From an uncultured Sphingomonadaceae bacterium (lineage in GTDB: Bacteria; Pseudomonadota; Alphaproteobacteria; Sphingomonadales; Sphingomonadaceae), in assembly GCA_946480515.1 (NCBI GenBank), contig CAMLKX010000009.1, forward strand, positions 1-18,955: 18,955 bases of DNA, given 5' to 3'. The position numbers were made by a program, and so were the translations under genes. How positions within the stretch are numbered: position 1 is the first letter of the stretch; each line of letters opens with the position of its first letter. Of this stretch, positions 15,461 to 18,955 are shown in pieces. Below the pieces are notes generated by a model. It searched no databases, was not told the origin of the DNA, and worked only from the letters and a program-made list of their open reading frames with translations.

Positions 15461-15814
15461 TTAGACGGTAAAGCTTTCGCCGCAGCCGCACGCACCCTTC
15501 GCATTGGGGTTCTCGAACACGAACCCGGCGGCGAAATCATCCTCGCGCCAGTCCATGACCGATCCGATCAGGTACAGCACGGAAGCGCCGTCGACGTAGA
15601 ACCGGCCGCCTGGAGTTTCGATCTTCTCGTCGAACCGGTTTTCCTCGGTGACATAATCGACCGAATAGGCCAGCCCGGAACAGCCACGGCGTGGCGTTGA
15701 GAGCTTCACTCCGATCGATCCCTCCGGAGCGCGGGCCATCAACTCCGCGATGCGGTCTTCCGCCGCAGGCGTGAGAGTGATCGCCGAAGGACGGGCGCGG
15801 GTACTAATGGTCAT
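15461..15814 (-). CDS. sufA: A-type iron-sulfur carrier (SufA/ErpA/HesB family)
   Basis: The 117-residue product has the three cysteines that define A-type Fe-S carriers: C45 in RRGCSGLAY, and C109 and C111 in the C-terminal CGCGESF. Such proteins accept clusters from a SufBCD scaffold and pass them to apo-targets. The N-terminal block ITLTPAAEDRIAELM and FYVDGASVLYLIGSVMDW are also typical. SufA is preferred over ErpA because of its position at the end of the suf operon, but sequence alone does not settle this. It is separated from sufT by about 114 nt that hold an inverted pair of G/C-rich repeats, and it has an unusually complete ribosome binding site, consistent with independent initiation. 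Confidence 0.93.
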   Translation of the reverse strand: MTISTRARPSAITLTPAAEDRIAELMARAPEGSIGVKLSTPRRGCSGLAYSVDYVTEENRFDEKIETPGGRFYVDGASVLYLIGSVMDWREDDFAAGFVFENPNAKGACGCGESFTV

Positions 15815-15817
15815 TTG

Positions 15818-15826
15818 TCCTCCTTA
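15818..15826 (-). promoter_or_regulatory. Near-perfect Shine-Dalgarno of sufA
   Basis: Read on the minus strand this is TAAGGAGGA, followed by CAA and the sufA ATG. It is close to a full complement of the 16S rRNA 3' end and much stronger than the other ribosome binding sites in the window. Unlike the other suf genes here, sufA is not coupled by overlap to its upstream neighbour, so a strong site makes sense. It lies immediately beside the repeat hairpin. Confidence 0.75.
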
Positions 15827-15827
15827 C

Positions 15828-15864
15828 GCCCCTCCCCTTCAGGGGAGGGGTTGGGGTGGGGAGC
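15828..15864 (+). repeat. G/C-rich palindromic repeat, copy A
   Basis: This is a 37-nt element made of a palindrome (10-nt arms CCCCTCCCCT / AGGGGAGGGG with a 2-nt centre, 15829-15850) followed by TTGGGGTGGGGAGC. It is identical to copy C at 18898-18934 in 36 of 37 positions, the single difference being T15839 versus G18909. The four G-tracts at 15842-15861 follow G4-A-G4-TT-G4-T-G4, a canonical quadruplex pattern on the plus strand. It lies in the sufT-sufA gap. Confidence 0.92.
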
Positions 15865-15922
15865 CGAGACACCATCCGCCCTCGGCCCCACCCCTCGATC
15901 CCCTCCCCTGAAAGGGAGGGGA
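15829..15922. other. Long inverted repeat / hairpin between sufT and sufA
   Basis: Copies A and B face each other around a 12-nt loop (15869-15880), with CCGAG and CTCGG closing the stem. The predicted stem is almost all G-C pairs over some 35 nt, with a small internal bulge where the spacers differ. Each copy can alternatively fold on its own palindrome. No T-run follows on the transcribed strand, so it does not look like an intrinsic terminator. It more probably acts as an mRNA processing or stability structure, or is simply a pair of inserted elements. Confidence 0.75.
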
Positions 15923-15928: not shown

Positions 15929-16387
15929 TCACAACATCCCCAATTCAAGCCTTGCTTCGTCGCTCATCTTGCTCGGGTCCCAGGGCGGGTCCCACACCAG
16001 CTTGACCTCGGCATCGCGAATCCCCGGAACCGACATGACCCGAAGCTCAACTTCGCCCGGCATCGATTCTGCGACCGGGCAGTGAGGGGTCGTCAGGGTC
16101 ATGGTGACGACCGCATCGCCCTCATCGCTGATCGACACGTCGTAGATCAGCCCGAGTTCGTAGATATCGACCGGAATTTCCGGATCGTAGATCGTCTTCA
16201 GAACCTCGACCACCGCCGCCTGCAGGTCGCCGCCTGGGCCCGCGACATCGTCTTTCGCCGGCTGCTCGGCGAGGAAGCCGGCAAGATAGTCGCGCTTGCG
16301 CTCGAACTCGGGAGTCACCCGGGCGCGCGGTGGCTTGGCCACGGGCATCCCGTCGTCGGTCTCGATTTTCGTCTCTTCACCCATCAT
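15929..16387 (-). CDS. sufT: SufT / DUF59 (MIP18 family) Fe-S cluster maturation protein
   Basis: The 152-residue product has a variable charged N-terminus of about 50 residues followed by a DUF59 domain: VVEVLKTIYDPEIPVDIYELGLIYDV (59-84), TMTLTTPHCPVAESMPGEVE with the conserved Cys103, and KLVWDPPWDPSKMSDEAR at the C-terminus. Proteins of this family assist Fe-S protein maturation and are commonly encoded in suf operons under the name SufT. The product ends SDEARLELGML, as family members often do. The start is ATG 16387 (ATGA overlap with the sufS stop) or the adjacent ATG 16384. Translation is probably coupled to sufS, as no good SD is seen. The gap to sufA downstream holds the inverted repeat pair. 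Confidence 0.93.
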   Translation of the reverse strand: MMGEETKIETDDGMPVAKPPRARVTPEFERKRDYLAGFLAEQPAKDDVAGPGGDLQAAVVEVLKTIYDPEIPVDIYELGLIYDVSISDEGDAVVTMTLTTPHCPVAESMPGEVELRVMSVPGIRDAEVKLVWDPPWDPSKMSDEARLELGML

Positions 16388-17604: not shown

Positions 17605-18347
17605 GCCACCGCCTCCAGCGCGGCTCGCGCCGCAGCCGCAATCGCCTCGCGCTGGTCCGCGTTCGCGATCCCCTCCCACAGGTCGGCAATGAACCCTTCC
17701 AGCAGCAGCGCCTTCGCGGATGCCGGATCGAGGCCGCGACTCATCGCGTAAAACAGCTGATTGGGATCGAGCTCCCCGACACTCGCACCGTGAGCGCATT
17801 TCACATCATCCGCGAAAATCTCCAGCTCGGGCTTGCAGTTGGCGGTCGCGCCACGGTCGAGCAGCATCGCCTTGACCGACTGCTCGGCATCGGTCTGCTG
17901 TGCCTCGCGCGCCACCGCGACCTTGCCGAGGAAGGAGCCGGTCGCCTTGCCGCCAAGCACCGAGCGCACCGTCTGCCGAGATCGTGCCGATGGAGCGACA
18001 TGGCGGACCGTAGTGACGATTTCGAGATTGGCCGAGCCGCCGCCAATCTGGGCGGCATGCAAGGAGAAGTTCGCGCCCTCGGCGAGGGTCACATCAAGTT
18101 CGATGCGCGAATAATCCGACGCGATGTTGAGCGCGTGTAAGTCGAACGCGGCGCCCTCACTCAATATGATCTCGGCGCGCCGGACCTGCACGGCTTCCCC
18201 GCCCGGGGACAGCACATGCTCGTGCCGCTCACCCGCGCCAACTGTGATCCGCTTCGGCGGCGGCAGGGCACCCCACACGTCCCTGAGCGCGTCGAGGTCG
18301 GCGTAGCGCCACGCCTCCTGCTTGCGCGATGGAAACGGCGCGTTCAT
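17601..18347 (-). CDS. sufD: SufD-family Fe-S scaffold subunit
   Basis: The 248-residue product belongs to the SufB/SufD family that forms the SufBC2D scaffold with the SufC ATPase. It has the right-handed beta-helix style (VQVRRAEIILSEGAAFDLHALN, ANFSLHAAQIGGGSANLEI) and the conserved C-terminal block ELEIFADDVKCAHGASVGELDPNQLFYAMSRGL, with C184 and H186 at the position of the functional His of E. coli SufD. It is much shorter than E. coli SufD (about 420 residues), lacking most of the N-terminal domain. Residues 5-30 (FPSRKQEAWRYADLDALRD) still match the usual trimmed start, so this is probably a naturally short form rather than a truncation. The start overlaps the sufC stop by one nt (TGATG). 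Confidence 0.93.
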   Translation of the reverse strand: MNAPFPSRKQEAWRYADLDALRDVWGALPPPKRITVGAGERHEHVLSPGGEAVQVRRAEIILSEGAAFDLHALNIASDYSRIELDVTLAEGANFSLHAAQIGGGSANLEIVTTVRHVAPSARSRQTVRSVLGGKATGSFLGKVAVAREAQQTDAEQSVKAMLLDRGATANCKPELEIFADDVKCAHGASVGELDPNQLFYAMSRGLDPASAKALLLEGFIADLWEGIANADQREAIAAAARAALEAVA

Positions 18348-18955
18348 CAGGCGGCGGCCTCGGCATAGCCTGCGCGCTCAAGCTCGTGCGCGAGCTCCGG
18401 TCCGCCCGAACGCACGATCCGTCCGCCACTCAGCACATGCACCCGATCGGGAGTCACATAGTCGAGCAGCCGCTGATAATGGGTAATCAGCAGCACCGAT
18501 TTATCCGGCGCGCGCATGATCGCGTTGATGCCCGCGCCGACCGCGCGAAGCGCGTCGATGTCGAGCCCGCTGTCGGTCTCGTCGAGCACCGCGAAACGCG
18601 GACTCATGATGCCCATCTGGACCATCTCGGCGCGCTTTTTCTCGCCGCCGGAAAAGCCGACATTGACCGGCCGCTTGAGCATCTCGACATCCATGCCGAG
18701 CGTCGCCGCCTGGGCGCGAGCAAGCTTGATGAACTCCGCTCCCGACAGTTCCGTTTCGCCCCGCGAGCGGCGTTGCGAATTGAGGCTTTCGCGCAGGAAT
18801 TGCAGATAGGACACACCGGGAATTTCGACCGGATATTGGAAGCCGAGGAATAGCCCGGCGGCGGCGCGCTCGTGGGGTTCGAGGGCGAGGAGGTCTAGCC
18901 CCTCCCCTGCAGGGGAGGGGTTGGGGTGGGGAGCTTCCGGAGAAGTCGCGGCTGT
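18347..18955 (-). CDS. sufC: SufC ATPase, N-terminus cut by window edge, with an in-frame repeat insertion
   Basis: This is the C-terminal two-thirds of the SufC ABC ATPase that powers the SufBCD scaffold. Visible blocks are LFLGFQYPVEIPGVSYLQF (Q-loop region), the signature NVGFSGGEKKRAEMVQMGI, Walker B FAVLDETDSGLDIDALR with the catalytic Glu, and the switch His in LLITHYQRLLDYV. The frame is open leftward of the GTG at 18814 all the way to the window edge, so that GTG is not the start. Between TAAT and LDLLALEPHERAAAGLF lies SPEAPHPNPSPAGEG, which is not SufC-like and is encoded by repeat copy C. Ordinary SufC has a short strand-turn there (roughly TF-x-G-x-DLL), so the insertion probably adds about a dozen residues. 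Walker A lies outside the window. Confidence 0.94.
   Translation of the reverse strand, partial: TAATSPEAPHPNPSPAGEGLDLLALEPHERAAAGLFLGFQYPVEIPGVSYLQFLRESLNSQRRSRGETELSGAEFIKLARAQAATLGMDVEMLKRPVNVGFSGGEKKRAEMVQMGIMSPRFAVLDETDSGLDIDALRAVGAGINAIMRAPDKSVLLITHYQRLLDYVTPDRVHVLSGGRIVRSGGPELAHELERAGYAEAAA
18898..18934 (+). repeat. G/C-rich palindromic repeat, copy C, inside the sufC reading frame
   Basis: This copy matches copy A in 36 of 37 positions. It contains a perfect 22-nt palindrome (18899-18920) centred on CTGCAG, followed by TTGGGGTGGGGAGC. G-tracts at 18912-18931 give the same G4-A-G4-TT-G4-T-G4 pattern. Read in the sufC frame on the minus strand, the element gives A-P-H-P-N-P-S-P-A-G-E-G with no stop. 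Similarity to copy A ends at 18934, which helps to define the element's edge. Confidence 0.93.

Follow-up and report, generated by a model that had tools for sequence, protein, structure and literature searches.

The DNA analysed here, referred to as the window, is a stretch of 18,955 nt from an uncultured Sphingomonadaceae bacterium (contig CAMLKX010000009.1). It ends in a partial gene that we identified as sufC, as several of its nearest proteins are annotated as Fe-S cluster assembly ATPase SufC. The reading frame of this gene contains an arm of a palindromic repeat, of which a complete copy (copy A) is found in an intergenic region of the same window. The positions of these features are given in Table 1.

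Table 1. Features of the window that relate to the palindromic repeat in sufC.
Feature	Position	Strand	Basis
sufC, partial	18347..18955	(-)	open reading frame; 5' part past the window end
Visible in-frame insert in sufC, 20 codons (TAATSPEAPHPNPSPAGEGL)	18896..18955	(-)	comparison with insert-free loci
Palindrome arm in sufC, 37 nt	18898..18934	(-)	repeat family D7; 36 of 37 nt shared with copy A
Copy A, complete inverted pair of the same family	15824..15922	(.)	D3/D7 and I4; placed by blastn

The two members of repeat family D7 (15828-15864 and 18898-18934) share 97% identity over 37 nt. Copy A, located between the open reading frames at 15461-15814 and 15929-16387, is 99 nt long and has its arms at 15829-15859 and 15891-15921 (inverted pair I4). 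The preliminary description of this DNA had reported a 37-nt repeat lying in frame within sufC and matching the intergenic stretch at 36 of 37 positions, and this was borne out. As a length, 37 nt holds for the matching stretch but not for the element, since the stretch is one arm of an inverted pair of about 100 nt. In sufC, the visible 60 nt comprise a single arm plus a portion of the spacer, because the window ends within the insert. The frame is translated across the insert edge as TAATSPEAPHPNPSPAGEG followed directly by LDLLALEPHERAAAG, with its 5' end open, and the codon after the visible insert encodes the conserved D of a DLL motif. The part of the gene upstream of 18955 lies beyond the window, and statements below on the open frame of sufC refer to relatives. 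A chance repeat was ruled out by the 36/37 identity, together with the dispersed copies of related stems described below. Intergenic palindromes of the suf region occur in several species, apparently in one and the same interval, in the window (copy A) and near 13.1-13.8 kb in loci L053, L006, L007 and L009 (loci are numbered with L and genomes with G).

The sufC site in related genomes

At the protein level, we considered the best 120 of 8000 proteins scored against the SufC of the window. At the insert point, the surplus exceeds 7 residues in 74 of these 120 nearest proteins listed and in 81 of the 121 proteins with both anchors, drawn from 128 collected (7 of them through a search with the insert of L031). 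Many of the extra stretches start with PLP..GG..GG and end with PNPSL.GRG or PPASGRG, to which PNPSPAGEG of the window is similar. The L031 search, in which 40 residues of the insert were used, had only 11 candidates and yielded 9 proteins with E values up to 10, namely 8 SufC proteins with an insert and a histidine kinase (E 4).

At the DNA level, loci were taken from a scan of genome contigs (the 80 best of 568 confirmed loci) and from a sample of 397 genomes from the family to which G002, the genome of L003 and a Sphingomonas MAG, belongs. SufC was found in 383 of the 397 at E 1e-60, and 71 genomes with poor or no scores were searched again. Insert length was measured between the anchors MGPNG and FQYP. 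This spacing is exactly 144 nt in 105 of 149 loci (103 of 147 without two repeated records) and 216-294 nt in 42, a surplus of 72 to 150 nt, while a small surplus is seen in only two of the 149, L079 (+12, 156 nt) and L028 (+18, 162 nt). The SufC of L028 (Sphingopyxis granuli) has its 18-nt surplus (TPSLQAGAI) with no repeat pair, possibly the scar of a lost insert. The 42 measured inserts comprise 36 from the family sample and 6 others. With L127, a further in-frame insert that was read by eye as the anchor pattern failed, at least 37 of the 397 family genomes are carriers, a count that leaves out G377, whose sequence starts at the insert site. For the rest of the 397, the call relied on the score or on a full-length match among those listed. 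When 99 genomes of this family were tested directly at the junction, SufC was split in 8, whole in 90 and without a match in one. A class-wide search gave a match in 98 of 142 genomes, and SufC was unsplit in 88/88 class genomes (87/87 without G103, a member of the family sample), a count that omits G002 itself and 9 weak matches, which are probably other ABC proteins.

Comparison with insert-free relatives placed the insert between GSVTF and DLL of SufC, and in relatives it is an inverted repeat pair of 72-150 nt. All 42 large inserts are multiples of 3, are free of stops and lie at one codon. The proposal that a dispersed palindrome had entered SufC in frame and added a loop in a short turn between two strands agrees with these data; it understated the case, as several repeat families are found at this site, which is used recurrently across a bacterial family. 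Relatives show other repeats at this site, or none, rather than the same residues without a repeat. A pseudogene, which the same description had raised together with a second sufC elsewhere, was ruled out for the inserted relatives tested, as these have open frames and, at E 1e-40, a single match to SufC in each genome.

Nine stem classes were distinguished at this codon, with 15, 7, 5, 3, 3, 3, 3, 2 and 1 members; their patterns were written after the inserts had been viewed, and L067 and L161 fit two of them. The stem of the window belongs to class 8. The longest exact inverted match within an insert ranges from 7 to 28 nt, and most of the 42 inserts fold as long hairpins, with a mean of -0.58 kcal/mol per nt vs -0.37 in 126 downstream windows of the same length; 15 of the 42 fold below every control window. 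The insert of L162 (150 nt) is apparently a palindrome nested within another, with the frame kept. Genome-wide stem counts, which cover classes 2, 3 and 6, gave 12 to 195 matches of the class-2 arm pattern in six genomes (reversed control, 0), 114 of the class-3 stem in G003 and only 8 of the class-6 stem in G235. Judged by sequence, the stems tested have features of REP/REPIN-type elements, namely short palindromic units, many dispersed copies and hairpin-forming inverted pairs. Several stems (e.g. L061, L123 and L137) start with CGTC by eye, as head-to-head pairs; those of classes 2 and 8, the latter that of the window, do not.

An AlphaFold model of a near relative (P0001, 45-sequence alignment) has a mean pLDDT of 82 and its best solved matches are the E. 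coli SufC structures 5awf, 2d3w and 2zu0. Residues 68-88, within the insert, fall below a pLDDT of 50 shortly after a strand at 53-62, as would be expected of a floppy loop. In 33 of the 42 inserts, hydrophilicity is higher in the frame in use than it is on average in the other open frames (p 0.0003, with kinship ignored). The insert is presumably translated and near neutral.

History of the insertion site

For the tree, we used partial SufB and SufC minus the insert in 147 of the 149 rows, leaving out L087 and L103, which repeat other rows. The tree was obtained by a quick method, with 54 of 144 inner branches weak and 11 rows holding under half of the columns. Presence and absence change at least 28 times on it, a parsimony count that is blind to gain vs loss, and the starred branches alone give 15 independent pairs. 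Sisters with differing stem classes are L119/L121, L130/L135, L116/L123 and L002/L003 (starred) and L133/L162 (84), while sisters that differ in presence are L159, filled, vs L102 and L068, empty, on end branches of at most 0.006, and L014/L041 (87). Empty sites of exactly 144 nt are scarless and favour gain over loss. Repeated filling of the sufC site is thus the likeliest history, in which insertion would dominate over loss.

We consider it probable that REP-type pairs insert often and that selection spares in-frame, stop-free copies in tolerated loops, so that the turn of SufC is refilled repeatedly. Under this explanation, several families of non-autonomous inverted pairs, scattered over sphingomonad genomes, would insert at a high rate, and selection would purge nearly all coding insertions unless the frame is kept, stops are avoided and the loop is tolerant. 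The hairpin turn GSVTF/DLL would be such a loop and, because it tolerates inserts, would be filled again and again by whichever family is active in the lineage. The site would then be picked by tolerance rather than by targeting. A shift in synonymous codons should be counted against this explanation, because tolerance alone predicts no such shift. The first Leu of DLL is encoded by CTC in 19 of 42 inserted vs 6 of 99 empty genes, and Thr at -7 by ACG in 19 of 42 vs 12 of 99. Both shifts rank near the top of the 415 codon comparisons, that at the first Leu being the greatest, with kinship-paired median p values of 0.039 and 0.22, respectively. They may be due to shared ancestry, to inserted alleles having been exchanged or to local structure being under selection.

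Shared ancestry would apply if one or a few ancient insertions were lost in most lineages, with the core later swapped for other palindromes through recombination or replacement, or with inserted alleles passing from species to species together with short flanks. The flank codons common to inserted alleles speak for such a history, as do the flank residues TP at the start and GW(I/V/L) before DLL, which by eye recur with different stems, and the surplus of L028, which lacks a hairpin pair and is possibly a remnant. A common origin was also argued in the Rickettsia japonica case, in the available part of PMC3767692. Nonetheless, we regard this history as unlikely: with 105 of 149 sites at exactly 144 nt, loss would need to have been exact in almost every case, the near-identical L102 and L068 are empty beside the filled L159, and the stems are unrelated.

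Transposition machinery aimed at the insert codons through a DNA or hairpin target would explain why one identical codon is used each time, and the flanks show a weak tendency to pair (18 of 200 synonymous redraws were at least as stable; inserted vs empty genes, p 0.02, with kinship ignored). However, this signal is weak, for which reason we rejected flank pairing as the cause of site choice. One target would have to serve nine stem classes, and the glyS site described below differs in sequence. Targeting is, therefore, very unlikely. It is extremely unlikely that the inserts are retained for a function, whether as an mRNA hairpin that tunes suf or as a useful SufC loop. The strong folding (-0.58 vs -0.37 kcal/mol per nt) and the shifted flank codons could be taken as signs of function, but strong folding is expected of any GC-rich palindrome, most family members tested have no insert (90 of the 98 with SufC), and it changes between sisters. 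Practically no credence can be given to an insert that stays outside the protein through assembly artefact, RNA-level removal or ribosome bypass, as, even though at least one contig starts within or beside the insert (L160), inserts occur in many assemblies, one of them titled as a complete genome (L014), and all 42 keep the frame and avoid stops, which bypass would not require.

In-frame palindromes are already known from Rickettsia palindromic elements (RPEs) and intragenic REPs; what is new here is one codon with many unrelated classes. RPEs lie in frame inside functional genes and encode solvent-exposed segments, and the question of hot spot vs common origin was raised for them (PMC3767692, in part). 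All Rickettsia orthologs compared there are filled at the same site, which was read as one origin. The sufC inserts resemble RPEs as palindromes that lie in frame within genes, in frame and stop-free in 42/42. Unlike in the Rickettsia case, presence in sufC is mosaic, with unrelated stems at one codon, and the likeness to RPEs is one of description. The sufC site offers a natural replicate experiment on selfish repeats turning into protein, with one codon, dozens of fills and empty sisters, and the choice between hot spot and common descent, asked for Rickettsia, becomes testable.

S. alaskensis, too, is a sphingomonad. Its tRNA synthetases and those of E. litoralis are among the genes with intragenic REPs reported, alongside the CGTC-tagged REPs of Alphaproteobacteria, in the part of PMC3733652 available. 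Those REPs have a CGTC tag, an 8-9 bp stem and a CCA tail, which by eye were seen here in several stems outside classes 2 and 8. Among DNA-repair genes, recB of two Xanthomonas species is the sole case of a shared intragenic REP site given in that paper, and sufC does not occur in its main text. REPINs and RAYT-linked REP doublets (PMC3116915, in part) are inverted doublets with predicted hairpins and high copy number, as here. Unlike the sufC inserts, they are reported to be mostly extragenic, and REPs in general are treated as mostly extragenic in the portions available of PMC12306157 and PMC3116915. Going by titles and the beginnings of abstracts, none of the papers listed for SufC with palindromic elements, for RPEs, for intragenic REPs or for insertions in glycyl-tRNA synthetase reports the SufC insertion site.

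Palindromes in glyS and other genes

A second site lies in glyS, which encodes the beta subunit of glycyl-tRNA synthetase, between VEEGIV and LADxAEQAARL (loci L330-L365). Of 99 genomes searched, 97 gave a match; the junction is split in 36 of these, and 34 of the 97 hold large, varied, hairpin-forming inserts that are stop-free and multiples of 3. The remaining two split genes are L351, which has no length measurement, and L342, in which the frame is broken and no insert is present. The break in L342 (genome G077) falls exactly at this glyS site and would be an assembly error or a deletion. The 34 inserts fold with a mean of -0.59 per nt vs -0.35 in 34 upstream windows, a strength like that of the sufC inserts. 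As the stem-class patterns fit only 11 of the 36 stretches, the glyS inserts were left unclassed. The glyS site is hotter than that of sufC. The SufC and GlyS loops so marked seem to accept 25-50 foreign residues, and odd length variation of both proteins in databases is accounted for. A few fixed codons of sufC, glyS and probably further essential genes of sphingomonads could be standing docking sites for unrelated palindromic elements. Their choice or upkeep would then go beyond mere tolerance, because neighbouring synonymous codons differ between filled and empty genes; we consider this unlikely. In SufB, no insert above 24 nt was found in 94 full-length matches among the 99 genomes, the other 5 genomes having partial or frame-broken matches.

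That SufC is the sole decorated gene, as first suggested by 1 of 51 places in G140 under a strict coding test, was overturned by a looser test, Pfam and glyS. The 51 class-2 places checked in G140 are exact matches among those listed, with 195 arms in all, and 1, 2 or 3 of them are in frame depending on threshold: sufC, 5-FTHF cyclo-ligase and an E2 linker (Pfam). In G003, titled as a complete genome, in-frame class-3 places include acyl-CoA dehydrogenase, a dehydratase, glyS (twice) and sufC, out of 70 loci of which several are the two arms of one element and 5 were not refound; sufC was obtained at the looser threshold only. One of the 8 class-6 places in G235 is sufC. A tightened ORF test was passed by 49 of 91 places, which serve as leads only, as intergenic places are mixed in; an earlier ORF test on 81 loci was not counted owing to spurious GC-rich ORFs. 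At L071 (9372-9445), a conserved small gene downstream of sufC has a palindrome close to its start, apparently in frame, that is absent from L062.
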